A stretch of DNA of 21,937 nucleotides from a virus. The position numbers were made by a program, and so were the translations under genes. A model generated the notes under the pieces. The model was not told the DNA's origin and made no database searches. It saw only the letters and a list, made by a program, of their open reading frames with translations. Location of the stretch: positions 1 through 21,937 of IMG/VR virus record IMGVR_UViG_3300047474_000115. The stretch is one strand, 5' to 3'. Shown here piece after piece: positions 6,100 to 19,739 of the stretch; the first letter of the stretch is position 1, and each line of letters starts with the position of its first letter.

Positions 6100-7997
6100 C
6101 GTGGGAACACCTCATCGTAATTCACCCTAAGATATCCGTCCTCGCCTTTTTGAACGGACTCGGGTTTAATTTTCATAACTTCTTGTGCAATTACGCCTAG
6201 AGTAGGTTGATTTTGTATCCCCATTTCATGAGCTTTTTCGTTCCAATCCCATTGATAAATGCCCACCCCGTTAGTGAGGTCTTTGACATGCACCACATTC
6301 TCTTTGAGGCGGATATCTGATAGGGCGGCAAATACGCCGATACCTGTTCCAACTGCGTTCAGAACTCCGTTTATTTTGGAGGCTTTGTACTCTTTGCCGA
6401 TCTGGTACTTTTGAATGTCGTATCCGAGCTTGGCCTCGAAAATACGCAGTAAACGATCTCGGGCGTTCTCACCCTCTCGCCAAGCGTAGTCTAAGAGGGA
6501 GTCGGTACGATCCCACATCTGGTTAAGCTGTTCAGAAGTGAGCCCTACCATATTCTTTACGTCTAGTGCCGCCGCTTCAAACTTCTGCTCGGACTCTAGA
6601 ACCGTAATATCCTGCCGCCACTTTGCGTTACCGGCATCAACTTTATATTGCATGGTTTGGTAGAACTGCTCTCTATTGTTCTCAAGAGAAGCATTGAACT
6701 CTCGCATGTCATTTATTTCGCCCGCATTAAACTGCTTCATGGCGTTAGACTGCGTTGCGTTGAAGCGAGAGATCTGTGACCCAAGCTCATCGTAAAACAT
6801 ATCCATTTCATTTTGGCTTGAAGCCACAAATTGACGTTTTACGTTTTCTTGCTTGGCATCTTCCATAATAGATTGCTGACGCAACTGCATTTTTAGGACA
6901 TGCGTCTGTTGCTCATTTTCTAAGTTTTGAAGATCCATCATCATAAAAGATTTGGCATTGGTGACAGCTTGCGTCATACGAGCATCCAGATCTGCCACAT
7001 TCATCTTAGATAGAATGTTTGCCGTGTTTAGTGCCTGAGTATTTCGTGCATCTAGGTTCTTAATAGTCAGGGTCTGGAAAAACTTACTGTCTGCGTTTGC
7101 GATAGGTAGGATAGATTCCATTGTGGCGGCGGAGACTGCGCCCATTGCGGCCGTCCCTGTCACACCACTAAGGGCCATCATCTTCATCACGCCCTTAACG
7201 GCTCCGGCGGCAAACGCAGGGATTCTGGGCTCCCCTGTCACCGGATCAACAAATTGCTTTTGCAGTATTTCAAGCTGTCCTGCTACTGTAGCTTTGGCGT
7301 CAATGTAATTACCTTCGCCAAGCTCCTGCGCCAGCATCTTTCCAGAAAGAGTTGTGGTATCTACAACCGTGGACATGTTCTGGGTGTAGACCGTGTTTAG
7401 AGATTGCCCTACTTGGTTAATTGTTCCATCTGCGTTTACGCCAGTAGCTAACCCTTTCATGTCTAGGGTATCGATGTTCACTATGGCTTCATCGCTAACA
7501 GTACCCTGTGCCGCATTTGCATCAGCAAGCGCACTGTTTACTGAGGCTTGGGTATTCTGAACAGTGTAGCTATTAACATCGCCCTGCGTGACGTTGCTGG
7601 CGAGGCTAGTGTTATTTACGGTTGCAACATCCTGAGAAAGACCTCCAGCATCTATGCTGTAGTCTGAGCCGTCTAGTATAGTCCCAGGTGTGTTAGGGTC
7701 GATGCCCTCTACGTCATCGGAGAGAGTTCTGTCAGGGCCTAAGAATGTAGAGGGGTCGTTGATTATTGATGTAGAGACTTCTGCTACGTTAGTGCCGCCC
7801 ACTACCTCAGAATTATTAGAAACTGATGAATCTGTCCCAGTTGGACTATTTGCAATGGCGGCATTTTCATTAACAACGCCTTCGCCGCCAGCTATATCCT
7901 CTAGAGAGAGGTCAGTGGTTTGTCCTGTATCACTGGCATTGCCCGTTACAGCACTTATGTCTCCTACGAGCCCATTTATATCAATTGGTATTGGCAT
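6096..7997 (-). CDS. Coiled-coil virion protein with C-terminal S74 intramolecular chaperone domain
   Basis: 633 residues. The first ~200 are Thr/Ser/Asp/Asn-rich, low in charge and beta-like. Residues ~255-300 form an Ala/Gly/Met-rich hydrophobic stretch. Residues ~310-550 are a long helical, coiled-coil-like region with repeated FNA patterns (RFNATQSNAMKQFNAGE, then REFNASLENNREQF). From residue 560 the C-terminus matches the peptidase S74 / endosialidase chaperone family: SDIRLKENV, then GVIAQEV, then GYLRVNYDEV. In this family the Ser and Lys of the first motif carry out self-cleavage once the trimer has folded. Both are present here, so autocleavage before Ser560 is plausible. S74 domains are usually found on tail spikes and fibres, while the helical body and the location suggest an internal or tail-core protein. 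The S74 call is strong; the role of the body is uncertain. Confidence 0.85.
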   Translation of the reverse strand: MPIPIDINGLVGDISAVTGNASDTGQTTDLSLEDIAGGEGVVNENAAIANSPTGTDSSVSNNSEVVGGTNVAEVSTSIINDPSTFLGPDRTLSDDVEGIDPNTPGTILDGSDYSIDAGGLSQDVATVNNTSLASNVTQGDVNSYTVQNTQASVNSALADANAAQGTVSDEAIVNIDTLDMKGLATGVNADGTINQVGQSLNTVYTQNMSTVVDTTTLSGKMLAQELGEGNYIDAKATVAGQLEILQKQFVDPVTGEPRIPAFAAGAVKGVMKMMALSGVTGTAAMGAVSAATMESILPIANADSKFFQTLTIKNLDARNTQALNTANILSKMNVADLDARMTQAVTNAKSFMMMDLQNLENEQQTHVLKMQLRQQSIMEDAKQENVKRQFVASSQNEMDMFYDELGSQISRFNATQSNAMKQFNAGEINDMREFNASLENNREQFYQTMQYKVDAGNAKWRQDITVLESEQKFEAAALDVKNMVGLTSEQLNQMWDRTDSLLDYAWREGENARDRLLRIFEAKLGYDIQKYQIGKEYKASKINGVLNAVGTGIGVFAALSDIRLKENVVHVKDLTNGVGIYQWDWNEKAHEMGIQNQPTLGVIAQEVMKIKPESVQKGEDGYLRVNYDEVFPR

Positions 7998-8241
7998 TTA
8001 TTTTATCTCGCTCTATGTGGCAGTTCCGGAGAGTGTCTCGTAATTTTATATAGTCGATGATGGCACGGTTGATGGCTTCAGAATCTGCCTCAGAAACAGA
8101 CATTAGTTCGTCTGCTAACTGGGAATTAAATTCATCATCATAAACTATAATCTCAGGGCAATAGATCTCTAGTGTGCTAGAGCCCCTTGTCGCGCAAGCG
8201 GTCAATAAGCTCACTGCGGTTATTAATAGAAGTACTCTCAT
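7981..8241 (-). CDS. Outer-membrane spanin lipoprotein (Rz1-like o-spanin)
   Basis: 86 residues if started at ATG 8241-8239, which gives a clean lipoprotein signal: MRVLLLITAVSLLTAC with lipobox L-T-A-C and lipidated Cys16. The open frame extends to 8295, but that extra N-terminus would bury the signal peptide, so I reject the longer start. The mature part is acidic and helical and ends with a YIKLRDTLRNC segment, common in marine phage Rz1-like proteins. It should be lipid-anchored in the outer membrane and bind the inner-membrane spanin to fuse the two membranes at the last step of lysis. Its 5' end lies out of frame inside the i-spanin gene (65-base overlap), and its 3' end overlaps the next gene by 17 bases. 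This implies a host with an outer membrane. Confidence 0.82.
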   Translation of the reverse strand: MRVLLLITAVSLLTACATRGSSTLEIYCPEIIVYDDEFNSQLADELMSVSEADSEAINRAIIDYIKLRDTLRNCHIERDKINANTN

Positions 8242-8422
8242 CAGCTTCCATGTTTTTGTAAAATTCTGCTCTGTCTTTCTCTGTCTCAACATCATCTTTC
8301 AGATGCTCGACTTCGTTAAGCTTTGCCCCATCCTTTCTTCCAAGGATGTAGAGAATGGGCAGTAGAGCCGCGAATGCCGCATAGAGGTAAATCTTCAGTT
8401 TCCCAGTTAAGATGGAAAACAC
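8177..8422 (-). CDS. Inner-membrane spanin (Rz-like i-spanin), 81 aa
   Basis: An 81-residue protein with one N-terminal membrane segment (about residues 9-27, IYLYAAFAALLPILYILG) followed by a charged coiled-coil-like periplasmic part rich in Glu, Asp, Lys and Arg. This is the Rz-type topology: membrane anchor inside, helix reaching across the periplasm. The start is GTG at 8422-8420, sharing one base with the endolysin TAG stop, with AAAGGGG seven bases upstream. The gene for the lipoprotein partner begins inside it in another frame, which is the classic overlapping spanin pair. It is shorter than lambda Rz (153 residues) but within the range of small phage i-spanins. Confidence 0.8.
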   Translation of the reverse strand: MFSILTGKLKIYLYAAFAALLPILYILGRKDGAKLNEVEHLKDDVETEKDRAEFYKNMEADESTSINNRSELIDRLRDKGL

Positions 8423-9159
8423 TAGGCATCCCCTTTGTTATGTGAACTAACCCTCGCGTAAGTAACCAGACCAATCCCTAAAACACTTAAAGTAACGAAC
8501 AGTATTTTTAAGGTGTCTGAGTAGGAAACGAGAGATTGGAGGTTTCCAGCCGCATCAGTTATTACAGTCCCTAAAGTACCGGCTCCGGCAGTTGCCGCTC
8601 CGGCGATAGTCTTAGACTTCTTTAAAGGCTTGAGGGCGGTTGGTGCTGGCTTCTGTGGCATAACTTCACCACCTTCATCCGCCAGTACTGCATCCATAGA
8701 GAACAACGCCGCCTCTGCCGCCCTACGTCTGGTAAGACCAGCTAAGGGCGTTAATACGCCATCTACTTTAGCTTTATTCCATCGTAGTAACTGTTCCGGT
8801 ACGGCAGAGTAATCAGAAGCATTTAAAAGCTTTAGGGCCGTACTCTTAGAGAAATTTCCAGCACCTAAATTAAAAACAAACGACACCAAAGAGTCGAACT
8901 GGTTTTGAGATAAGGGCACTTGTACAAGACGTTGTACGTCTTTTTCAGACTGCCTTACATCATCAAGAAGAAACTGCTCGCATTCTTCTACAGTAACTTT
9001 CTGACCAGAGCGAACACCCTTGGTGTGACCCCAACCTAGCGTCCAACGTCCGGAGCTACAACGGTACGACCTAATCATACCGTCATCCATTTTTTTATCT
9101 AACCCCTCAAACTTCTTAATCAGGGTTACGCCATCTGGGCTGATATTTGTTGGGTGCAT
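8422..9159 (-). CDS. GH24 endolysin (phage lysozyme) with C-terminal membrane segment
   Basis: 245 residues from ATG 9159-9157, chosen because AAAGGG lies 6 bases upstream; a longer frame to 9285 would run back into the preceding gene. Residues ~5-160 match glycoside hydrolase family 24: KKFEG with catalytic Glu18, then YRCSSGRWTLGWGHT with Thr40, and FDSLVSFVFNLGAG. At the position where T4 lysozyme has Asp there is Cys34, a variant known in this family. Glu18 and Cys34 are 16 residues apart instead of the usual ~9, so about 7 residues are inserted. After a Pro/Lys linker comes a Gly/Ala-rich stretch and a single membrane helix (~216-237, ILFVTLSVLGIGLVTYARV). The enzyme cleaves the glycan strands of peptidoglycan. 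The C-terminal membrane part suggests membrane tethering or holin-like help. Spanins follow directly. Confidence 0.9.
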   Translation of the reverse strand: MHPTNISPDGVTLIKKFEGLDKKMDDGMIRSYRCSSGRWTLGWGHTKGVRSGQKVTVEECEQFLLDDVRQSEKDVQRLVQVPLSQNQFDSLVSFVFNLGAGNFSKSTALKLLNASDYSAVPEQLLRWNKAKVDGVLTPLAGLTRRRAAEAALFSMDAVLADEGGEVMPQKPAPTALKPLKKSKTIAGAATAGAGTLGTVITDAAGNLQSLVSYSDTLKILFVTLSVLGIGLVTYARVSSHNKGDA

Positions 9160-9172
9160 TGTTTGCCCTTTC

Positions 9173-10621
9173 TTAGCTCTGCACCGTTGCAGAATAAGGG
9201 TTCGCTGTACCGCCCGAGTAAGTCCGTGCTGTTCCTGTAGGCCCAGCCATCGCAACATTAGAGCCTGGGACGTAGCCAAGCTCATCCATACGGGCCATCA
9301 GTTGGTTGATGTTTAATGCAGTCTGGTTATTTAGACTGCCGTTTGCTGAGAACTGAGATAGGATCAAGCTTCCTTGGTCATCAATCGCTCGGGTAATGTA
9401 GTCACCATTTGAGAGAGCCGACTGTCGGATAAGAGCGCCAGTACTGTCAAAGGAGTCTACCATTGTTCCGTATGTGTTTCGGAATTCATCGTCAATGTTG
9501 GCGCTAGTGTCTGCCAGAGTAGTTCGGACAGTATCTAATCGATCAACAAACTCATTCCGCATTGCTTGGTCTTCCGCGCTATTTGCTTGGAATCCAGATG
9601 TAATCATCTGAGCTACGGACGCAAAGTCTTGGCCCTGACTAGAAACAGTGTTCCCAAATTCATCTTGACCGGAGGCCACATTAGCTAGGGTAGTGTTAGT
9701 CTGTTGTTGCTGTTGGCTTGCTTGAGCAAACGCGGCTTGATTATTTGCGTTGGTATTTGCTTGGCCCGCCATCAAGTCGTTTGTATTAACGGCTTGGGCT
9801 TGTGCAATCTGACTACGCTGTTGATTGGCGAGAGTTGTATTATCGTCATACTGCTCTCTATAGTTCGTAAAGTCAGAACCTATGTTACCCAGCCGAGTAA
9901 TAGTATCGAGTGAATCTGCCTTTAGGTCATCATAGTAGTTTGTGTTCTGTAGGCCAGCCGCCTCTAGCGCGGCTAGGATGGCATTTTGTTGCTCTAAGTT
10001 AGCCGCTTGGTTAGTGTTGGCTAGGTCTTGAAGAAGGGCTGTATTTTCCAGATTATCTGACTTTGTCTCCTCGTAGAAGCCCAGCCGGTCTTCTATACCT
10101 TTAACGCCGTATAGTCGGACTTGCTCCATCTGGTCGATCTTGTCTTGGGCATTTTGAGCTATCAACTGCTCCCCAAACAGCGCCCTATCTTCATTCAAAT
10201 TCTGAAATTGGGTGTTAATATTATTAGTAGAATTACTAAACCCAGTATTCATTGAATCTGTCAGAGTATTCGTCTGGTTGTTGATATTGCTGTTAATTTT
10301 CTCAGTATTAAGATTTGAGAGATTAGTCTGGGACGCAAACCCATCCGTTACCGCCGTATTCAAATTATTATAATTGCTTGCGGCAGTTTCATTAGCCGCG
10401 CTTGCCGCAGTTGCGGCCGCTTGCATCGCATTGTCTCGCTCAATTGACGCTTGCTCAAACGCCGCTTGGGCGGCGGCGGCATTAGCTTGCATCGCGTCAT
10501 AATTCGCTTGAATAGAGTTGGAGATATCCGCTTGACCAGTACTCAGCCCCTCAAATTGCTCCTCATCAAGCCCATAGTCGTTAGTGACGTATGTATTTTT
10601 CTTTTTGCTAAAAAGTCCCAT
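9173..10621 (-). CDS. Large Ala/Asn/Gln-rich coiled-coil virion protein, 482 aa
   Basis: A 482-residue protein beginning MGLFSKKKNTY, then a long Ala/Asn/Gln/Thr-rich helical region. This includes an alanine-rich part near residues 40-80 and a QQQQQ run near 300. I find no Cys, Trp or His in the whole chain, and no membrane segment or enzyme motif. The C-terminal ~40 residues turn Gly/Thr/Ser-rich. The start ATG 10621-10619 follows AGGAGA by 5 bases; the gap to the preceding gene is 13 bases and to the endolysin 13 bases. Composition resembles internal or tail-rod structural proteins of marine podoviruses. Its place between the holin-like gene and the endolysin is odd for a structural gene. 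I infer a structural role and cannot name the family. Confidence 0.75.
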   Translation of the reverse strand: MGLFSKKKNTYVTNDYGLDEEQFEGLSTGQADISNSIQANYDAMQANAAAAQAAFEQASIERDNAMQAAATAASAANETAASNYNNLNTAVTDGFASQTNLSNLNTEKINSNINNQTNTLTDSMNTGFSNSTNNINTQFQNLNEDRALFGEQLIAQNAQDKIDQMEQVRLYGVKGIEDRLGFYEETKSDNLENTALLQDLANTNQAANLEQQNAILAALEAAGLQNTNYYDDLKADSLDTITRLGNIGSDFTNYREQYDDNTTLANQQRSQIAQAQAVNTNDLMAGQANTNANNQAAFAQASQQQQQTNTTLANVASGQDEFGNTVSSQGQDFASVAQMITSGFQANSAEDQAMRNEFVDRLDTVRTTLADTSANIDDEFRNTYGTMVDSFDSTGALIRQSALSNGDYITRAIDDQGSLILSQFSANGSLNNQTALNINQLMARMDELGYVPGSNVAMAGPTGTARTYSGGTANPYSATVQS

Positions 10622-10634
10622 GTGTTTCTCCTAG

Positions 10635-10904
10635 TTATCTGAAATAATAAACAACGAAGCTGACTGCCCCAGTTCCTATTAACCACGCAATACGTTCCGC
10701 AATTTTGACGGAATGATTATTGCTGACCGCAACATCACGAAGGTTTTCGATGTCGGCTTCTTGTTCGTCTGCCCGATATTCCAGACGATCAATTCTTTGT
10801 TGGGAGGCTATAAGCCTCTCCTCAATCCGAGCCGCAATAATTGTAGACTCGTCTAATTTTTTCTCAATTCTGTCCAAGCGATTAGTATCCATTGTTTTAT
10901 CCAT
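10635..10904 (-). CDS. XhlA/holin-like coiled-coil protein with C-terminal membrane segment
   Basis: About 89 residues if started at ATG 10904-10902; a second ATG four codons later (10892) is equally possible. The open frame reaches back to 10991, but that part lies inside the halogenase gene and has no ribosome site. The protein starts with amphipathic helix (DRIEKKLDESTIIAARIEERL and onwards), continues as heptad-patterned coiled coil, and ends in one hydrophobic segment, IAWLIGTGAVSFVVYYF. This is the plan of XhlA-type phage membrane proteins, which work with holins in host lysis. Its place upstream of the endolysin and spanins supports a lysis role: letting endolysin act or timing membrane damage. 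A structural or anchoring function cannot be excluded, as the match is to architecture rather than specific residues. Confidence 0.62.
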   Translation of the reverse strand: MDKTMDTNRLDRIEKKLDESTIIAARIEERLIASQQRIDRLEYRADEQEADIENLRDVAVSNNHSVKIAERIAWLIGTGAVSFVVYYFR

Positions 10905-10915
10905 TACCTTACGGC

Positions 10916-12457
10916 CTACCACCGGCCATCCGGACAAGTGGATTGTTTTAATGCTGTTTTCATGTGAGTTACGCACCCGCACAATGAACACACCTTTAAT
11001 CCGAATTTTTCTGCTCTATGTTCACAGTCCATGCAGATTTCCCTTCGCTTATCTTTCCAGTGCTTAGTCTGAACATTGGGAAATCCGTAAGCTAAGAACA
11101 AAAGACCCCAACTGTCGTTGCCGAAAAATCCGTAATCTTTGTAAATTTTATTAACTACTTCTGGCAGGAGAGTTGTCTCATTGTCAGAGTAAGTTTTTAA
11201 AAGTTTAGAAACTTTGGGTCTTATGCGTAGCTTTCGGCAATCTCTCCAAAACCTACTGTCGCATCTCTGTGAAAATTTGTAATGCGCTGTTATAAAATCT
11301 AAAGTTTGTAAACTCTTTTTAATCGTCCTTTGATTAAATCTCTTCTTTCTTACTGCCAAATCAACGTGGTCGGCAGTTAGCAAGGGCTGTAGGTTGTGTA
11401 ACGCAACATGAGTAAGCGCAATTGCGGTACTTTCTAAAGGCTCAATAAACATTGATGCTAGGCCAATAGATATTACGTTTCCCTTCCAAGGCTCCTTTCT
11501 ATGCCCAGACTGAAAGTTTACCAATCGGGGCGTTAGTGTTTCTGTGTCGTAGCCATACTCTTCGTTGAGATGAGCTAAAAATTCTTTCTTTGCACCTTCC
11601 GAAGAAGTGTGCCGAGAAGAGAAAACGTAACCTGTTCCTACTCTGCTTTGCAGTGGTACGTTCCACACCCATCCATTCTTTAGGCCGTGGCAGTACGTTG
11701 TGTTCCTTTTCTGCGTAGCTTCATCTAAGTAGGGAAGTTGTACTGCCCACGCGCTATCGCAAAAAAGCTCTTTCTCGTATGACACCCAAGGTGATGGGTT
11801 TAAAATAGACGAAAATCCCGTAGCATCTAAGTAGTAATCTGCTTCGATTTCGGCGGCGTTATCCAGTACTACAGCCGATATATCTTCGTTATCCCACCTA
11901 ATCTCTGTAACAGTGCCATGCGTTAATTTTACGTTATCCCTAGTTAGGGAAAGTTCTCTCAGAAGCTTTGCGTACTTGGTAGCATCTAAGTGAAATCCCA
12001 TCCCAATATGCGGGAGGTTTTTAGTATCTTTGAAACCCTCTTGGCGTAGCTTTGCCATCCCAAGAGTCTCACCTACCCAGTTGTACTGGCCCGCCCCAGA
12101 CGGGACGTTTACGAGCCCGTGATTAAATGCGTCTAGCGCACCTTCGTCCTGACCGTTGATAAAAAAAGGATGAACCCACTTAGTTTCTTTCTTAAAAAAG
12201 TTTGCAAACTCAATAGTGAATTTGCCGGTTCCATCAACCTTATCTACCCATGTCCTACTGTTAAATTCTTTAAAGCCGGTGCTGGTATGGAAATTCTCCA
12301 AATATGGTAGGGTACTTTCCCCAACCCCAATAGGCTCATTTACTTCTGGCTCTATAATCTCAACTTGAAATTTGCCAAACTTACTTAAATATGCGGCGGC
12401 TGACCAACCTGTTGTTCCTCCACCTACAATACAGATCTTCTTACTGTGGTAACTCAC
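10916..12457 (-). CDS. Flavin-dependent tryptophan halogenase homologue with C-terminal Cys-rich tail
   Basis: 513 residues. The N-terminal FAD site is GGGTTGW (12-18), followed by IGVGESTLP (43-51). The family catalytic lysine is Lys79 (GTGKFTIEF), the same number as in PrnA. A DATGF motif is at 211-215. The WxWxIP motif that marks halogenases and suppresses monooxygenase activity appears as WVWNVP (263-268). IEPLEST supplies Glu342, matching the active-site Glu of PrnA. Such enzymes use reduced FAD, O2 and halide to make hypohalous acid that reacts through the lysine, and a partner flavin reductase is needed; none is visible here. A phage member, VirX1 of cyanophage Syn10, is known. The start is GTG at 12457 with GAGGG 9 bases upstream, overlapping the preceding gene by 17 bases. 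Residues 473-513 hold CxxC, CxxCxC, His and CPDGRW, a zinc-ribbon-like tail. Substrate unknown. Confidence 0.92.
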   Translation of the reverse strand: MSYHSKKICIVGGGTTGWSAAAYLSKFGKFQVEIIEPEVNEPIGVGESTLPYLENFHTSTGFKEFNSRTWVDKVDGTGKFTIEFANFFKKETKWVHPFFINGQDEGALDAFNHGLVNVPSGAGQYNWVGETLGMAKLRQEGFKDTKNLPHIGMGFHLDATKYAKLLRELSLTRDNVKLTHGTVTEIRWDNEDISAVVLDNAAEIEADYYLDATGFSSILNPSPWVSYEKELFCDSAWAVQLPYLDEATQKRNTTYCHGLKNGWVWNVPLQSRVGTGYVFSSRHTSSEGAKKEFLAHLNEEYGYDTETLTPRLVNFQSGHRKEPWKGNVISIGLASMFIEPLESTAIALTHVALHNLQPLLTADHVDLAVRKKRFNQRTIKKSLQTLDFITAHYKFSQRCDSRFWRDCRKLRIRPKVSKLLKTYSDNETTLLPEVVNKIYKDYGFFGNDSWGLLFLAYGFPNVQTKHWKDKRREICMDCEHRAEKFGLKVCSLCGCVTHMKTALKQSTCPDGRW

Positions 12458-12830
12458 GGAATTTTGCCCTCGCAGATGCCCGCCCCTCAGTAATTTCCTC
12501 TGGTACTGGTACTCCCGTTTCTAATTGACGAATGACGTACCAATCTGTCGAATGCAGATAGTCCTTTGCGGCGTAATTATCTTTAAGCATCTTGGTTATT
12601 GCTTTATCTTCTTCTACCGTTTCTAGGTAAATTAGAATTTCTTCTGCTTGCTCTGGTGTAATACCCGTAGTTTCTCCGCCCCATGTAATTTCTTTAACTG
12701 AGGTGCTGAACTTCAGAATGTCATACTCAAAAGAAAAGACCGGCTTTAGAGAAGTCTGTAAGGCAGTCTCCATCCCAACCTTCACTACTGAGGTTATCTT
12801 GCCGTCATGTATCATTTGGTGGTGGTTCAT
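12441..12830 (-). CDS. Tail fibre assembly chaperone-like protein, 129 aa
   Basis: The start ATG 12830-12828 follows AAGGG by 7 bases. The N-terminal half is beta-like (about residues 10-60), and the C-terminal half is helical and contains STDWYVIRQLETGVPVPEE followed by RASARAKFREL. A TDW motif, a pair of helices and a closing basic helix are typical of phage tail-assembly chaperone and fibre-assembly proteins (Phage_tail_APC type), usually encoded just after the fibre they fold. Here it directly follows the cupredoxin-like tail protein (10-base gap), which is the obvious client. Its end overlaps the halogenase start by 17 bases, tying expression of the two. The family call rests on the motif only. 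Confidence 0.68.
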   Translation of the reverse strand: MNHHQMIHDGKITSVVKVGMETALQTSLKPVFSFEYDILKFSTSVKEITWGGETTGITPEQAEEILIYLETVEEDKAITKMLKDNYAAKDYLHSTDWYVIRQLETGVPVPEEITEGRASARAKFRELPQ

Positions 12831-12840
12831 TTTTTTACCC

Positions 12841-13626
12841 TTAATAAAAATACGTCCAGTAAGAAGTATCTACTGTCTGATCCTCGTAATAACCGGCCGC
12901 TGTCTGGCCCCAATAAGACCCAGAAACCCCGCACTGGATGGTGCAAACCCACGGACACTGCCCCACCTGAGTCCACCCACAGTTGTGGCTTTGTCCGGAA
13001 GGGCAAGCACATGATGGGGCGGCATTCCCGCAAGGCCCAGACCATCCAGACTGCCCGTCACTACAACTCACATACCAGTAAGCAGTACCCGAATTGGCAC
13101 TTACTTGTGACCATGTGCCAATGTTCCCGTAAGTAGGCGGAATCCATACACTCTGTGTTTCAGACTGTTGGGTGTACACCTTTCTCCACATTTCTGTACT
13201 AGCGGATGATCCGGAAGAAATTGTAGAAACTGCGTTACCCATCCCATTTCCATGAACAGTGCAGTAATATTTCAAAACACTCGGAGCATTAGTAGGAACT
13301 GCAAATTCTACCTTCGCCCCTGCCTGTCCTGCCGTACCTGTGACGGTAACTCCCGTAGTATAACTAGCATCAGAAGCATCTCTGAAAGCTAACGGATGTC
13401 CGGCGTTTGTGCTGTCACTCTGATCAAACGTATAAGTAACACCTTTCTGAAGCGTCAGTACGGGAAACGGTGCGTCATTGAACGCAAACTTATTGCCGCT
13501 AGAATTGACAATTGTAACATCAAAAGAGTCAACACTCCCCGTAGGAGCTAAGTCAATTTTCTGTACATCAGACCCATTAAAAGTGATGTTTTGGACAACT
13601 GACCAATCAAATGTCGCTGTTGGCAT
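12841..13626 (-). CDS. Cupredoxin-fold tail protein with Trp/Tyr/Cys-rich C-terminal domain
   Basis: 261 residues in three parts. Residues 1-30 hold a short NITFNGSDVQKIDL repeat-like beta element common in phage tail proteins. Residues ~30-135 match a plastocyanin/cupredoxin-like domain: FAFN, LTLQKGVTYTFDQSDSTNAGHP, TTGVTVTGTAGQAGA, and KYYCTVHGNGMG. The four type-1 copper ligands, His77, Cys122, His125 and Met129, are all in place with normal spacing. Residues ~145-261 are of unknown fold and rich in Trp, Tyr, Gly, Ser and Cys, with eight cysteines between 188 and 232. No signal peptide. It sits in the fibre region, overlaps the small gene before it by 20 bases, and is followed by a chaperone-like gene. 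A receptor-binding or tail-tip role is likely; actual copper binding and any redox role are inferences. Confidence 0.8.
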   Translation of the reverse strand: MPTATFDWSVVQNITFNGSDVQKIDLAPTGSVDSFDVTIVNSSGNKFAFNDAPFPVLTLQKGVTYTFDQSDSTNAGHPLAFRDASDASYTTGVTVTGTAGQAGAKVEFAVPTNAPSVLKYYCTVHGNGMGNAVSTISSGSSASTEMWRKVYTQQSETQSVWIPPTYGNIGTWSQVSANSGTAYWYVSCSDGQSGWSGPCGNAAPSCACPSGQSHNCGWTQVGQCPWVCTIQCGVSGSYWGQTAAGYYEDQTVDTSYWTYFY

Positions 13627-13799: not shown

Positions 13800-14078
13800 T
13801 CAAGATGTGATTGTCAGAGTTGTTCCGGAATAGCTAAACGTAGCCCCAGCGGGGCCTTGAATTCCCTGCGGGCCTTGAGCGCCGTCTTGTCCGTCAACGC
13901 CGTCCGTCCCAGCCCCAGCGGGGCCTTGAATTCCCTGCGGGCCTACGGGCCCAGTGGCTCCTGTAGGGCCAACTTGGGCTTGCGTATGGGCCGTTACATA
14001 TGTGTTGATATCATTGATATCGTCTGTAGTAACGGCCCCATCAGCAACCAATTCAGCTAATACTTTTGCTTTTGGCAT
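13800..14078 (-). CDS. Collagen-like short fibre protein, 92 aa
   Basis: A 92-residue protein with a helical N-terminal head (1-36), a collagen-like Gly-X-Y part (37-80: six triplets, a two-residue break at 55-56, then eight triplets such as [11 protein letters not shown]) and a short beta-like end ([14 protein letters not shown]). Collagen-like triplets in phages form trimeric rods in fibres and needles. The ATG at 14078-14076 is preceded by AGGAGG at 5 bases, which partly overlaps the stop of the chaperone-like gene upstream. The Gly-X-Y region contains a perfect 34-base direct repeat. A trimeric spacer or tail accessory fibre is the likely role. Confidence 0.8.
13842..13944 (-). repeat. 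Two perfect 34-bp direct repeats inside the collagen-like gene
   Basis: Copies at 13842-13875 and 13911-13944 are identical over 34 bases and start 69 bases apart, exactly 23 codons, so loss or gain of one unit keeps the frame. Each encodes the [11 protein letters not shown] block. Identity at silent positions points to recent duplication or gene conversion rather than amino-acid selection alone. Confidence 0.9.
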
Positions 14079-14381: not shown

Positions 14382-15887
14382 TTAACCACTTAAATTAGAC
14401 AGAAAGCCAACATTGGTGCTTGGGAAAGACCGATTCGGGCCCCAAAGAACTCGGACACCACCGTTTCCACCCTGACAGTAATAAGCCGTACCGCCGAGCG
14501 AGGTTCCCCCACCGGCTCCACCGCCGCCAAACATTCCTCCTGATCCTGAGTAACGAGTACTTGAACCTTTGTTTGAAGCATATCCGTTAGTTGCGGCCGA
14601 TACCTCTGCCGTAGTTCTAGGCATGCCGGTACTATCATTATCTGTCGCACCAAAGTTAGGATAGCTATGGCCGCCCGCACTATTAGAAGTGCCATCTTCG
14701 CCACCCGATCCGCCAACGCCACCATGATGATTAGTTGTGCCGTTGTTGTTGTTGTAGAAAGAGTTTGAGTTAAAGCCGCTTCTTATACTTGAATAAACAC
14801 CAGAAGGCCCTTCTCCGAAGAGGCCCACGCCACCTCCCCCACCAAATGAATAGGTTGAAGATTGGTATCCACCTCCACCCGAGCCCGCACCACCTGTACC
14901 ATCAATACTGTTGTTCAGTGTGTTGCTACCGTTTCCTGTGGATTGATACCCATAATAGCCATTTCCGCCACTTCCTGAGTAGCCTCCTGCGCCACCTCCA
15001 CCGCCGTAGCCATTGGACGAACACATTCCGCCCCTACCTTCACTAATGTTTCCAGGGGTAATACTTCCTGCGAGAGGTTTAGCAATGTTAGAAAAAGCAG
15101 TACAACTATGTCTCCCGCCTTCAGCCGTAAATAGAAGTGTGCCGTTTTTAGAGATAGTAGAATCTTGTCCGTGACCAGTATTCCAACCACCTACACCGGA
15201 AGAAATTTCTATGGTATCTCCTGCTACTACAGCGATATCATTGGCCCACGCTAGTGCGCCACCCCCGCCCGCTGAGTTAGCCCAATTACCTGCTCCTGCG
15301 GCCCCTGCGCCAACGAGTACGGCACAGAAAGAAGTAACGCCATCCGGCACTGTCCAAGTAGTAGTCTTTGGCCCAGAGTGTTGACTTGAGTCCATTTGAG
15401 CTTCAAAACAAATGACTTCTCCACGCGGGAAACCAACAGTTGAGCCGAGAGTACCAAGCCATTGTCGTTTAGTGGCAGTCGCACCCACACAAACAAATAT
15501 TTCGCCGTTTGTTGTGTTGATAAACATAGTTCCTAAAGAATCTGCATTTCCTGTACTTGTTGTTGGATCTCCGGCAGACGTAAGATTTGATACCGCCGCA
15601 CCATTAACAAATTTTTGTAGGGTTGCGTTATATACCAGTGTCTGGCCCGCTGATGCCCCACTAATTTGGAAACCTAAGTTCCCAAGTGCCGCATTAGGAC
15701 TCTGGAGGTCACTGAGGTTATTGGCTTGCAATAAGCCAAGAGCGGCGATTGCGTCTGTTTCACTATTGATCGCTTCGATAGCTTTACCCAAATACACCAG
15801 ATCCTTTGGATCGGTAGTACTCGCGGCCAAAGCCTGAGCTTTGGAATCTATCGCGGTGATCAGCGTATTAAAGTTGTAAGCTGTCAT
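14382..15887 (-). CDS. Glycine-rich tail fibre / adhesin, 501 aa
   Basis: 501 residues. The N-terminal ~130 are helical then beta-like (IEAINSETDAIAALGLLQANNLSDL), with a tail-fibre-like SLGTMFINTTNGEIFVCVGA segment. From about residue 155 (EVICFEAQM) to the end the chain is Gly/Ser/Asn/Tyr-rich, with many GGGGAGGYSGSGG-type runs between beta stretches such as WTVPDGVTSFCAVLVGAGAAG. Glycine-rich domains of this sort form the receptor-binding tips of several phage adhesins and pack as polyglycine-type helices. It should be exposed and fast-evolving. It follows the large fibre gene by 3 bases, and a DW-motif chaperone gene comes next. Receptor recognition is the likely job; the receptor cannot be told from sequence. 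Confidence 0.85.
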   Translation of the reverse strand: MTAYNFNTLITAIDSKAQALAASTTDPKDLVYLGKAIEAINSETDAIAALGLLQANNLSDLQSPNAALGNLGFQISGASAGQTLVYNATLQKFVNGAAVSNLTSAGDPTTSTGNADSLGTMFINTTNGEIFVCVGATATKRQWLGTLGSTVGFPRGEVICFEAQMDSSQHSGPKTTTWTVPDGVTSFCAVLVGAGAAGAGNWANSAGGGGALAWANDIAVVAGDTIEISSGVGGWNTGHGQDSTISKNGTLLFTAEGGRHSCTAFSNIAKPLAGSITPGNISEGRGGMCSSNGYGGGGGAGGYSGSGGNGYYGYQSTGNGSNTLNNSIDGTGGAGSGGGGYQSSTYSFGGGGGVGLFGEGPSGVYSSIRSGFNSNSFYNNNNGTTNHHGGVGGSGGEDGTSNSAGGHSYPNFGATDNDSTGMPRTTAEVSAATNGYASNKGSSTRYSGSGGMFGGGGAGGGTSLGGTAYYCQGGNGGVRVLWGPNRSFPSTNVGFLSNLSG

Positions 15888-15890
15888 TCT

Positions 15891-17837
15891 TTATACTCCG
15901 AGGTTTAGTAAGTTTTCGTCTTCTAGGGCTATAATTTGTTCATCACGGGTGGCTAGAAGAGCATCCACTTGGTTTTGGGTGTAAGTATTAGCTACTTGAA
16001 AGGTTCCAAACGCCGCTATCGTGATTTCATCCCCTGTGTTTGCAGGGGTTCCGAGGATAACCTCGATGTTGTTGGTTGCAGTATAGTCAGACGGGGTTAA
16101 GAGTACGCCGTTCTGAAATACTTGAACAAACCCAATATCATAGGAGCAAGGGAAGGTAGTGTCAGACCCTGTGTATCCAGTTGAGTTAGTTCCTACTATA
16201 TAATGTTTGTAGTTTATGAGCCCGTTTACCTGAGAGCCCGCGTCCATCCATGCGCCTTGTTGGCTCCAGATTTTTAGCTGGTCTGTGCCTGTGTCAAACC
16301 ACATATCCCCCGCAACGATATCTACTGTCGGGGCGGTTGCACTTACATGATAAACACCAAAAAATTGCTGTACGTCTTGAGTAGCTGAATTTGCTAAATC
16401 TGCGTAGTACTTGGATGAATACAAACTTCCGGATACTGGTGAGCCCATCTGATTAGCCCAGTTCTGAGCTAGAGTTGCAGATCCGGCCGCATTATTTTCA
16501 GAGGTCAGTGCGTTGGCCGCACTAGTGGCGGCATTGGTGGCACTTCCTAAAATAGCATCAACGTAGGATTTGCTGGTCGCATCTCCTGCCAATGTTGGGG
16601 TGGCAAGATTAAGTATCTTGTTATTGCCGAGGTCTAGAGCCCCTGACAGAGTGCCGCCCGTCTTGTTTAAGAACGTATCTACATAGGTCTTATTAGTGGC
16701 GTCTGTACCCACAGTTGGGGCAGGGAGGCCGGTAATAGCATTGGAGTTTGTGTTGATGTCACCCGACATTGTGCCGCCCGCTAGGGGTAGCTTTGTCGCT
16801 ATCTCGTTAGTAATCGTTGTCGAGAAGTTAGGGTCATCTGCTAGTGCCGCCGCCAATTCGTTAAGCGTATCTAAAGTCCCTGGGGCTGAGTCAACTAAGT
16901 CGGCAAGACCAGTATCCACATATAACTTCGTGGCCGCATCAAGAGGATTAACAGGGGCCGATAGATTTGTAACCGTCCCAGAAGTTCCTGCGTTTAGGTT
17001 AAGTGAACCTGAGATGTTAACGTCTTGGAAACTACTTGTTCCAATAGATGTAACGTCACCCGTTACAGGGCCCACATGAGTACCTGTTGTAGTACCCGTC
17101 ACCGCGCCTGTGATATTACCCGTTACGTTACCTACAAAGTTTGTACTTGCAGTAATAACCGTGCCCGTAACGGCAGTAGCCGTAGACGCGCCAATTACGG
17201 TGTTATCAATGCTACCACCATCAATATTAACGCCAGTGCCAAGATTAGCAGTACCATTAACATGGATGTTTGTAGAGACAGTCACACTGCTCAGAGCGGC
17301 CGTTCCTGTTAAGACATTTATCCCGCCGGACAGGTCTATATTGTCGCCATAGATTGTATCTATGTACCCAATGCCATCAATATAAATATCTTGGTACTGT
17401 AGGGCCGCACTACCAATGTCTATGGTATTCGTAATTTTTGGCGTCATCTGTGCCAAATGGGTTGTTGTATTTAGCTCAAACCAGACTGCCTGTGCGGCCA
17501 GATTACTTTGGCAGATGTGTACGCGGTTAGTTGTAGTGTTAATCCATATTGAGCCTACAGAGTAACCGTAGGTAGCGTCATCAATGGATGACGGATCAGC
17601 TACTGCGTTTGTATTATTTCTTCCACCAACACCGCCATTAATATCTAAGAGATACCCAACAACAGAGGTCGATAAGGGTATTGGCGCTCCATCATTAGTA
17701 GTGCCTGTATGGGTGTGCCCAGAGGTTCCGCCAAAAGCGTCTGCAATAGCATTAAATTCAGCGTTAAGAGGCGGTGCAGTAATATTTGCACCGTTAATGA
17801 TGTCAGCAACGGAAGTTCTAGAGTAACCTATTGTCAT
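15891..17837 (-). CDS. Large tail fibre protein with VTG and YVD repeats, 648 aa
   Basis: 648 residues, starting immediately after the tail tubular protein B stop (TAA then ATG). Residues 1-60 form a virion-attachment-like head with PPLNAEFNAIADAF and a GHTHTGTTNDGAPI motif. The middle (~170-290) is a string of short G-x-VTG repeats (GNVTGNITGAVTG, then GPVTGDVTS), typical of thin beta-structured fibre shafts. Then come phage-fibre repeats ending in TKLYVD, NKTYVD and SKSYVD with LAGGTMSGDI and TGGTLSGAL. An Ala-rich helical stretch follows, then a beta-rich C-terminal domain (QVFQNGVLLTPSDY) and a final short coiled coil. Size and repeats fit a trimeric tail fibre bound to the tubular tail. 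In T7 the fibre gene lies after the internal proteins; here it comes before them. Confidence 0.87.
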   Translation of the reverse strand: MTIGYSRTSVADIINGANITAPPLNAEFNAIADAFGGTSGHTHTGTTNDGAPIPLSTSVVGYLLDINGGVGGRNNTNAVADPSSIDDATYGYSVGSIWINTTTNRVHICQSNLAAQAVWFELNTTTHLAQMTPKITNTIDIGSAALQYQDIYIDGIGYIDTIYGDNIDLSGGINVLTGTAALSSVTVSTNIHVNGTANLGTGVNIDGGSIDNTVIGASTATAVTGTVITASTNFVGNVTGNITGAVTGTTTGTHVGPVTGDVTSIGTSSFQDVNISGSLNLNAGTSGTVTNLSAPVNPLDAATKLYVDTGLADLVDSAPGTLDTLNELAAALADDPNFSTTITNEIATKLPLAGGTMSGDINTNSNAITGLPAPTVGTDATNKTYVDTFLNKTGGTLSGALDLGNNKILNLATPTLAGDATSKSYVDAILGSATNAATSAANALTSENNAAGSATLAQNWANQMGSPVSGSLYSSKYYADLANSATQDVQQFFGVYHVSATAPTVDIVAGDMWFDTGTDQLKIWSQQGAWMDAGSQVNGLINYKHYIVGTNSTGYTGSDTTFPCSYDIGFVQVFQNGVLLTPSDYTATNNIEVILGTPANTGDEITIAAFGTFQVANTYTQNQVDALLATRDEQIIALEDENLLNLGV

Positions 17838-19739
17838 TTATAATCTTCCCGCTATTGAGAATTCAAAGACAATGCCTTGAATACTGTATGGTTCAGTTAT
17901 CCCTAAAGTTACGAAAGTGGCTTGTGCCGCCTGACCAGATCCTTGGACATCTGTGGTGATGATGGGCTTATCCGTGCCGCCATACGCCACATTAACGCCG
18001 TTATACGTTATGTTTATGCCTTTATAGACTACTGGGGCCCCCTCAGAAACTTGCACCCAAGAATTGGGTTTTGCAGTCTTAGGGTCATTCCAATCGTAGT
18101 TTAGAGCCATGTTCATTTCTAGCGGCCCCTCTGCTCTGATGAAGGTGTTTACTTTCCGCATAACTTTTCTTACTTCAGTCTCCCCGAAGTCAAAAAACGG
18201 AGTGGCATAAATGGCTAGTATTTTAGATCCATCAAAGGAGTTATCTCCATTTTCACTCCGGTAAACTTTTCCGTTGTGGTCGCCGTGCAAGACTACCTCA
18301 ACATTGTTAACGTATTCGCTAACAGCACAACTTGCGCGTACTCCAACCATCTCCCCGAATTCCCATCCGAGCCGCTGATCAGCACTCCGCAAACCACCTA
18401 TAATTCCAAAGCTTTCTTCCTGATCCACAACATTTGGAGGATCAATGAAGTACCTAATTTGGCTTTTTGAGCGGATAACAACGCCAACCAAAGAGTCTAC
18501 ATCGTAGACATGGGGTAACTCCCTGAGAAGTTGTTGTATCGGCTTAGAAATTGTTTCTAGTTCAATGTCACCAATACGAGATGTGCCCGCAACAGGCCGG
18601 AAACCATCTGGTGCTAAAAATATCAAATCTCCGCCTATCTCTAAGACAGAGTCTCGGGCCATACAGCCCACATTATTCGTAACATGCTCAATAGAAAAGT
18701 CGCCATTGGCGCTGACTATCGACTTCTTAATGTTGTTCTCACCGAATAAAAATAAGTCATCTCGGAAAGTCTTAAATGCAACGATATCAAACCCAGCAAT
18801 TTGCTGTCCAGCACCTACACTAGCGCCCTGAGAGGTCACTGCCGCATTCCAATCAAATGGATTATTCGGGCTTGAGTGAGCTAACTTTGACGGGTCTGTA
18901 GGATCACCACTTAAAAACAGGTGATTTTTAAATACGTCCACAATAGAGGGCTGGTCTAAACACTGAGATCCCCCTGCATTTAGGGCATCTACCCCTGAGT
19001 TGGAGCTAACAATAACATTCCAATATAGGCCGTTATAGACAAGGGCGTTATTCGCACCATCTACAAAACAAATCATGTTACCAGAGCCGAAATTAAAATT
19101 AACAGATCTTACTCGGTTAATTGGCGTAATTTGCCCAAAAACAGACATTCTACGCAACTCAACACCGGCTGAGTTAATAGGAACAACCTTCTGCCATCCT
19201 CCGCCCGTTTCTTTGTAGAAACAGTACTCATTAACGTCTATCTCAATTACATCTCCGGCGCTTGCTGGGGTGTTAAGAACAAACTCATCTCCCCCCGCCG
19301 TATTTAAATTAATAGTAAAATCAAGAAGAACATATTTTCTTGTGCCATTAATGTAGGCCCAAGTATTGTTAGCAACAAGAACGTCCAGAGTTCTGCCGTT
19401 GTCATCAAAGCCAATGAACGATGTCTGCCCCGCCACGGCCGTAAATTTAAAAGTCTTTACTTTTCTAGTGGCCCAAAGTTCTTTCCCGCCCGTTAGATCA
19501 TTCTTAAAGAAGTCCAAAGACAAGATTTTTCCACCGCCATTGAGCGGGTCAACTTCCGGCGCATACGATCTGTATGGTGCGTACCCTTCTATTCTCCGGT
19601 ATCCCCCAAACAACGAAGGCTCAAAGTTCACAAGCCGTATTGCACTACCTGGACTATTCTCAGATAGGTCGAGGTGGTTCTCATTAGAGTTTAACCCCCC
19701 TCCGCAAACGACTTTGTAACTTTCAATTTGATCTGGCAT
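17838..19739 (-). CDS. Tail tubular protein B (T7 gp12-like nozzle), 633 aa
   Basis: 633 residues, almost entirely beta-like with no membrane segments. The N-terminus has GGLNSNENHLDLSENSPGSA then LVNFEPSLFGGYRRIEGYAPY, typical of podovirus nozzle proteins, followed by GGKILSLDFFKN and, further on, LFLFGENNIKKSIV and LVGVVIRSKSQIRYF. It forms the hexameric nozzle at the tail end, through which DNA leaves. Its start is directly adjacent to the stop of the tail tubular protein A gene (TAG then ATG), the same gene order as T7 11-12. T7 gp12 is longer (794 residues), but shorter marine versions are common. I am confident in this assignment from order and sequence character. Confidence 0.85.
   Translation of the reverse strand: MPDQIESYKVVCGGGLNSNENHLDLSENSPGSAIRLVNFEPSLFGGYRRIEGYAPYRSYAPEVDPLNGGGKILSLDFFKNDLTGGKELWATRKVKTFKFTAVAGQTSFIGFDDNGRTLDVLVANNTWAYINGTRKYVLLDFTINLNTAGGDEFVLNTPASAGDVIEIDVNEYCFYKETGGGWQKVVPINSAGVELRRMSVFGQITPINRVRSVNFNFGSGNMICFVDGANNALVYNGLYWNVIVSSNSGVDALNAGGSQCLDQPSIVDVFKNHLFLSGDPTDPSKLAHSSPNNPFDWNAAVTSQGASVGAGQQIAGFDIVAFKTFRDDLFLFGENNIKKSIVSANGDFSIEHVTNNVGCMARDSVLEIGGDLIFLAPDGFRPVAGTSRIGDIELETISKPIQQLLRELPHVYDVDSLVGVVIRSKSQIRYFIDPPNVVDQEESFGIIGGLRSADQRLGWEFGEMVGVRASCAVSEYVNNVEVVLHGDHNGKVYRSENGDNSFDGSKILAIYATPFFDFGETEVRKVMRKVNTFIRAEGPLEMNMALNYDWNDPKTAKPNSWVQVSEGAPVVYKGINITYNGVNVAYGGTDKPIITTDVQGSGQAAQATFVTLGITEPYSIQGIVFEFSIAGRL

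Follow-up and report, generated by a model that had tools for sequence, protein, structure and literature searches.

A flavin-dependent halogenase of an HMO-2011-type podophage is paired with a tryptophan- and tyrosine-rich tail protein, its candidate substrate

What use might a virus have for a halogenase? In the viral DNA considered here (a 21,937-base IMG/VR record, analysed whole and called "the window" below), the gene for a flavin-dependent halogenase (10916..12457, minus strand) lies close to a gene for a tail protein rich in tryptophan and tyrosine (12841..13626, minus strand), and a partner of this Trp/Tyr-rich kind stands at the same place in all 13 loci of the halogenase's clade. 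We propose, with a probability of roughly two in three, that the enzyme would be a dedicated virion-protein halogenase, active and made late, most likely acting on that tail protein and altering the adhesion of the tail to the host. The direct basis for the proposal is the enzyme's family, its intact residues and its fold, together with gene order, co-occurrence, and the sharing of one gene cassette between unrelated phages. In other words, the clade-wide pairing points to a marine phage that adds halogen (chlorine, bromine or iodine) to its own tail.

The reading frame of the halogenase runs from a GTG start at 12457 to a TAG stop at 10916 and encodes 513 amino acids. Residues 7–462 match the Pfam family Trp_halogenase (PF04820; E 2.3e-92, 310.7 bits, gathering cut-off 21), the PHROG tryptophan halogenase family phrog_2928 matches as well (E 6.7e-96), and the top sequence match in the PDB is VirX1 (E 1.6e-55). 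Four marks named in the initial annotation are all present on the minus strand: the FAD-binding motif GGGTTGW (residues 12–18, 12404..12424), the catalytic Lys79 (codon 12221..12223), which sits within VDGTGKFTIEF, the WxWxIP motif in the form WVWNVP (residues 263–268, 11654..11671), and the catalytic Glu342 in EPLEST (codon 11432..11434). Both motifs are supported by an alignment of phage halogenases as well as by the sequence; K79, W263, P268 and E342 are invariant among 21 phage halogenases, and K79, W263 and E342 stay so when bacterial halogenases are added (alignments of 52 and 49 rows), the lysine aligning with those of VirX1 and Thal. The catalytic pair of PrnA is K79 and E346.

The predicted structure tells the same story. 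An AlphaFold2 model of the halogenase has a pLDDT of 87.8 and a pTM of 0.87, and its best 50 Foldseek matches are all flavin-dependent halogenases, with E values down to 1.3e-39 and TM scores of 0.72–0.81. Profile, alignments and modelled fold agree, and together they confirm that the frame encodes a flavin-dependent halogenase with its catalytic residues intact, the chemistry itself being predicted. Nor does the protein appear to belong with the non-halogenating flavin monooxygenases, a grouping that would have spoken against the initial annotation: the Lys/Glu pair is present, the sequence and fold matches are halogenases, and the tree described below places the protein with halogenases. Three further IMG/VR contigs from the same population encode the halogenase at 100% protein identity (with 3–7 mismatches to the window over overlaps of 12–18 kb), so the gene is not an assembly error.

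At its C terminus, the enzyme carries a Cys-rich, zinc-ribbon-like extension (residues 461–513, 10919..11077, minus strand; phrog_13558, E 3e-10), which within the clade is common to the window, L381 and L382 only (branch support 97). The same kind of domain, CxxC...CxxCGC...CPxGRW, stands alone as a small protein in phages of Synechococcus, Leptospira and Rhizobium. The neighbouring frame at 10635–10991, as listed, starts within the halogenase gene, overlapping it by 76 bases; an ATG near 10905 is likelier to be its true start.

In a first tree, the window halogenase grouped with those of L264, L023, L266 and L024 (SH-aLRT 100), and in a later one, built after further scans, the clade counted 12 rows of the tree and 13 loci, with support unchanged at SH-aLRT 100. 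VirX1 (L009_8) falls in a separate branch, also at SH-aLRT 100; the window enzyme is not of the VirX1 lineage but is a new deep branch of the known halogenase family. VirX1, from cyanophage Syn10 (PDB 6QGM), is likewise a viral flavin-dependent halogenase with the same catalytic lysine and glutamate, encoded in an operon of its own with glycine-rich tail fibres; it is, however, only about 29% identical to the window enzyme, belongs to a T4-like myovirus, lacks the zinc-ribbon-like tail, and has no Trp/Tyr-rich partner of the window family that we could see beside it. The bacterial enzymes BrvH and Xcc4156 (PDB 6FRL and 6Y1W) rank high among the matches by sequence and by fold, but in the tree the sampled halogenases of bacteria are separate from the window clade. 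We considered a bacterial origin by way of a close relative and set it aside: the first genome scan gave no such relative, the matches of the profile scan were only 29–34% identical, and a plasmid search returned only distant bacterial halogenases.

The enzyme had been called PrnA-type, and of that description the catalytic residues and the fold stand; the more specific likeness seems doubtful. The free-tryptophan halogenases PrnA, RebH and Thal, which share fold and catalytic residues with the window enzyme, are natural-product pathway enzymes. In RebH, the lid residues Y454, Y455, E461 and F465 hold the amino and carboxyl groups of tryptophan, a clamp written as YYx5Ex3F, and BrvH lacks it (PMC5945002). 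The string YYx5Ex3F is absent from all 13 clade proteins in a plain string test run with no positive control.

The window contig is an HMO-2011-type podophage, as judged by homology and synteny of its genes for coat, tail and internal virion proteins. It has at least eight genes in common with Roseobacter phage CRP-3 (in the capsid, tail and internal virion region), with a coat protein 71% identical and a tail protein, 17838–19739, that is 51.6% identical to its CRP-3 counterpart over the full length. The halogenase gene lies in a tail/lysis operon, where the initial annotation had put it, with a phage lysozyme gene downstream in the same operon direction (8422..9285, minus strand; PF00959, E 1.2e-40) and tail genes on the other side. 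The first of these, for a tail-fibre-assembly-like protein (12441..12830; phrog_4912 and phrog_27919), does overlap the halogenase gene by the 17 bases reported earlier, and the strand, left unstated then, is minus. Beyond it, also on the minus strand, come the genes for the Trp/Tyr-rich protein, which matches tail-fibre PHROGs, for a collagen-like shaft protein (13800..14078; Pfam Collagen, E 1.7e-6), whose C-terminal 13 residues recur upstream in 9 of the 13 clade loci, for a glycine-rich tail-fibre protein (14382..15887; Pfam Gly_rich_2, E 1.3e-5; phrog_4474), and for a tail fibre protein (15891..17837; PHROG tail fibre families). After the lysozyme gene, overlapping small frames at 7981–8295 and 8177–8422, one with a lipoprotein-like LTAC box, probably encode a pair of spanins in nested arrangement. 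Among the window's frames that were profiled, none was recognised as a flavin reductase.

A late tail/lysis position would also suit an enzyme that, late in infection, halogenates a structure on the host surface or a host protein, for instance to keep out superinfecting phages or to free virions from debris. We consider this very improbable, since it leaves the obligate Trp/Tyr-rich partner unexplained, and an informal look at the halogenase noted no signal peptide or export feature.

CRP-3 shares the phage backbone with the window but not the cassette, and the other HMO-2011-type isolates checked are like it in this respect, with neither a halogenase nor a Trp/Tyr-rich gene: the stretches examined in seven HMO-2011-type or related records (L022 and L373–L378) hold no halogenase, and the main text of an HMO-2011-type genome paper (PMC9038755) has neither the word "tryptophan" nor the word "oxygenase". 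Where the window has its halogenase, CRP-235 has an HlyC-type lysine acyltransferase (L373:25525-25947; PF02794, E 1.6e-15). Because this is another protein-modifying family in the corresponding place, the site may be a slot for tail-modifying enzymes. At the halogenase place in CRP-738 there is a gene annotated "putative acyltransferase" (L375:27813-28268), perhaps another tail-modifying enzyme.

How constant, then, is the neighbourhood of the halogenase itself? The clade consists of the window, L023, L024, L264, L266, L344, L345, L381, L382, L383, L385, L386 and L387, or 11 distinct loci at <90% identity, and in all 13 the gene order is the same: Trp/Tyr-rich protein, tail-fibre-assembly-like protein, halogenase. 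The middle gene carries the motif DWYxxRxxExG at every locus. The pattern, in which the first or second gene upstream encodes a short Trp/Tyr-rich protein, was first noticed in the window, L023 and L024, and the other 10 loci were found afterwards. It held as a prediction in L264 and L266, which came from a clade-specific scan and of which L266 has a compact pair, L266:5060-5527 with L266:5956-7428; L344 and L345, reached through a tail-gene anchor from L266 and not through the halogenase, have both halogenase and Trp/Tyr-rich gene; and the last halogenase scan added L381, L382, L383, L385, L386 and L387, all with the Trp/Tyr-rich gene. Between the window and L264, L383, L385 or L266, the halogenase and the middle gene are the only genes shared by BLASTP (E 1e-8, low-complexity filter on), and the Trp/Tyr-rich gene is the third piece common to these phages, by composition and alignment.

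Both ends of the cassette are under purifying selection in L344 and L345 (dN 0.15 and dS 1.14 for the halogenase; dN 0.20 and dS near saturation for the Trp/Tyr-rich protein), the window copies being too alike to show it. This bears on a different doubt, that the enzyme is inactive, or that its fold serves some other flavin chemistry, for example hydroxylating the tail protein or cross-linking its Trp and Tyr residues. Halogenating activity is, after all, something that we read from residues and fold, and the second Trp of WxWxIP is replaced by Phe in L266, L344 and L345. Yet the window enzyme has Lys79, Glu342 and both motifs intact, and selection in the clade is purifying; of all the readings weighed here, we find this one the least credible.

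The proposed substrate is itself a composite. Residues 34–138 of the protein 12841–13626 match tail-fibre and baseplate families, and the rest of its C-terminal half is rich in Trp and Tyr, which make up 15.5% of its last 110 amino acids; the protein ends SYWTYFY, and most of its relatives end SYWAYYY, SHYVYFY or similar. (Within residues 34–138, His, Cys, His and Met are placed, by inspection, as in a copper-binding cupredoxin, and this domain is widespread in marine viral contigs.) Across the clade, the homologue or analogue at this place has 15–28% Trp+Tyr in its richest 100 amino acids and 14.5–30% in its last 110, a region in which just 7 of 2361 other (non-redundant) viral genes reach at least 15%. 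Neither PHROG nor Pfam has a family that matches the proteins from L264 and L266, and that of L266 has no match among phage records. Between L344 and L345, and again between L264 and L023, conservation is higher at Trp and Tyr positions than at most others; comparison of the window with L381 and L382 gives no clear sign that Trp positions are better conserved than others. A model of the Trp/Tyr-rich domain made from five sequences is not confident (pLDDT 53.6), and its fold matches are meaningless.

The linkage can also be approached from the partner's side. When 2.9 million viral contigs were scanned twice with alignments of the Trp/Tyr-rich protein, making no use of the halogenase, eight contigs were returned, and all eight bear a halogenase. 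The profile of the Trp/Tyr-rich family (A4) was too insensitive for L344, and absence was judged instead by six-frame composition. On that measure, 23 relatives of the L266 tail for which ≥2.6 kb is available upstream have neither a halogenase nor an upstream 100-residue window of at least 18% Trp+Tyr, although values of 14–17% turn up in a few of them, where the protein, frame or region is an unrelated one. Likewise, no 100-residue window in the seven HMO-2011-type or related records reaches 18%, the maximum being 17%, in a different protein of CRP-738. Composition alone separates positives from negatives with slight overlap. A Fisher test of co-occurrence gives p ~1e-9 (run with 24 anchor relatives, which are 23 by recount), a value that serves as a guide only because the loci are not independent.

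Could the target nevertheless be something else in the tail? The initial annotation had thought it unusual for a halogenase to be coupled to tail genes, and here we find the opposite: tail coupling is the rule for phage halogenases, the VirX1 locus included. We took 37 halogenase-bearing records of phages or viruses; 22 of them match the glycine-rich tail-fibre family phrog_863 strongly (E < 1e-20), and in 21 of these 22 the halogenase is <5 kb from the fibre gene (in all 21, within 2.3 kb). Random placement would put 3.3 of the 22 within 5 kb, for a combined p of 7e-9 that is optimistic because the records are related to each other. The VirX1 gene (L009:9499-11091, annotated "hypothetical protein") is itself in a glycine-rich tail-fibre operon. 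Many of these loci have a small gene before the halogenase and 2OG-Fe(II) oxygenase genes after it, with P-SSM2, S-B64 and S-SSM6a as exceptions to the common layout. Arrays of 3–5 halogenase genes in ~12 kb occur in the viral contigs L056, L067 and L072, some near glycine-rich fibre genes. Two GenBank entries for "Bacteriophage sp." from human faeces, MT837902 (L010) and MT835646 (L011), were left out as bacterial-looking DNA; in the latter, TonB-receptor-like genes adjoin the halogenase genes.

One might therefore suppose, from the closeness of glycine-rich fibres to phage halogenases at large, that the window enzyme modifies the glycine-rich fibre 14382–15887 or the collagen-like shaft 13800–14078, as may occur in cyanophages, and that the Trp/Tyr-rich protein is a mere neighbour. 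The loops of such fibres contain Tyr and His, and the window and L382 have a glycine-rich fibre in common. Against this, the constant partner in the clade is the Trp/Tyr-rich gene (13 of 13), and in L023, L024, L264 and L266 we saw no fibre of the glycine-rich kind close to the halogenase. Such fibres also occur where there is no halogenase, for example in CRP-3, and for that reason we have demoted the glycine-rich fibre as a substrate; we regard this reading as unlikely.

A more familiar idea is that of an auxiliary metabolic enzyme which, during infection, halogenates a small host molecule such as tryptophan, indole, a signal or an antibiotic precursor. For cyanophage halogenases this is what is usually suggested (PMC10452541, PMC2984593), and many small aromatics are substrates of VirX1 in vitro (PMC8407142). 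No metabolic gene was recognised near the window halogenase, however; the linkage to virion genes is constant across unrelated phages, and the motif test gave no sign of the free-tryptophan clamp. This idea, too, seems to us unlikely, and a shade more so than modification of the glycine-rich fibre or the shaft.

We return, then, to the Trp/Tyr-rich tail protein. The initial annotation had read the gene's position as hinting at a target that is produced or exposed late in infection, and that hint is now strengthened to a specific candidate two genes upstream. We infer that the halogenase would be made late, together with the tail, and that FADH2 supplied by the host, oxygen and the halide of sea water would yield hypohalous acid at the flavin. 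Lys79 and Glu342 would steer this acid onto aromatic side chains, most likely the Trp and Tyr of protein 12841–13626, which the middle, tail-fibre-assembly-like protein may present or keep soluble, and the resulting halogenated aromatic tip would alter the attachment of the tail to the host. There is precedent for such chemistry: ChlH halogenates internal Trp residues of peptides and of some proteins (PMC12518702), and the substrate site of BrvH is open to solvent and has been likened to that of the peptide halogenase MibH (PMC5945002). For the peptide halogenases ChlH and MibH and a proteusin brominase, the enzyme is encoded in linkage with its ribosomal substrate (PMC12518702, PMC10858898). 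Here as well, the gene is linked to that of a ribosomal protein rich in target residues, its putative substrate. If our reading is right, the cassette would resemble those systems, to which we liken it by their descriptions, in having a gene-linked substrate; theirs, however, are small peptides of natural-product clusters, whereas the window's would be a virion tail protein. It could also be that the linkage reflects a shared receptor niche instead of an enzyme and its substrate.

A broader proposal, on which we would lay even odds, is that the three genes form a mobile tail-modification cassette, consisting of an aromatic-rich adhesin, an assembly protein and a dedicated Trp/Tyr halogenase, and that tail-linked phage halogenases in general, VirX1 among them, may be virion-modifying and not auxiliary metabolic enzymes. 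Marine phages often carry halogenases, and cultured phages that bear one include Syn9, Syn10 and S-RIM44. Halogenases have been counted among auxiliary metabolic genes and found in 20 of 153 cyanophage sequences (PMC10452541), and the antibiotic role suggested for those of cyanophages has been called speculative (PMC2984593). In the papers that we searched, we found no tested role for marine phage halogenases, no description of a halogenated phage virion protein and, to our knowledge, no earlier description of the cassette with its proposed virion substrate.

What gene order offers is a named candidate substrate for a phage halogenase, the Trp/Tyr-rich tail protein. If the proposal is true, protein-directed halogenases with gene-linked substrates would become available as tools, and the tail fibres of culturable cyanophages, such as Syn10, would be predicted to bear halogen. 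That is, phage virions would carry halogenated protein, and host recognition would gain a chemical layer.
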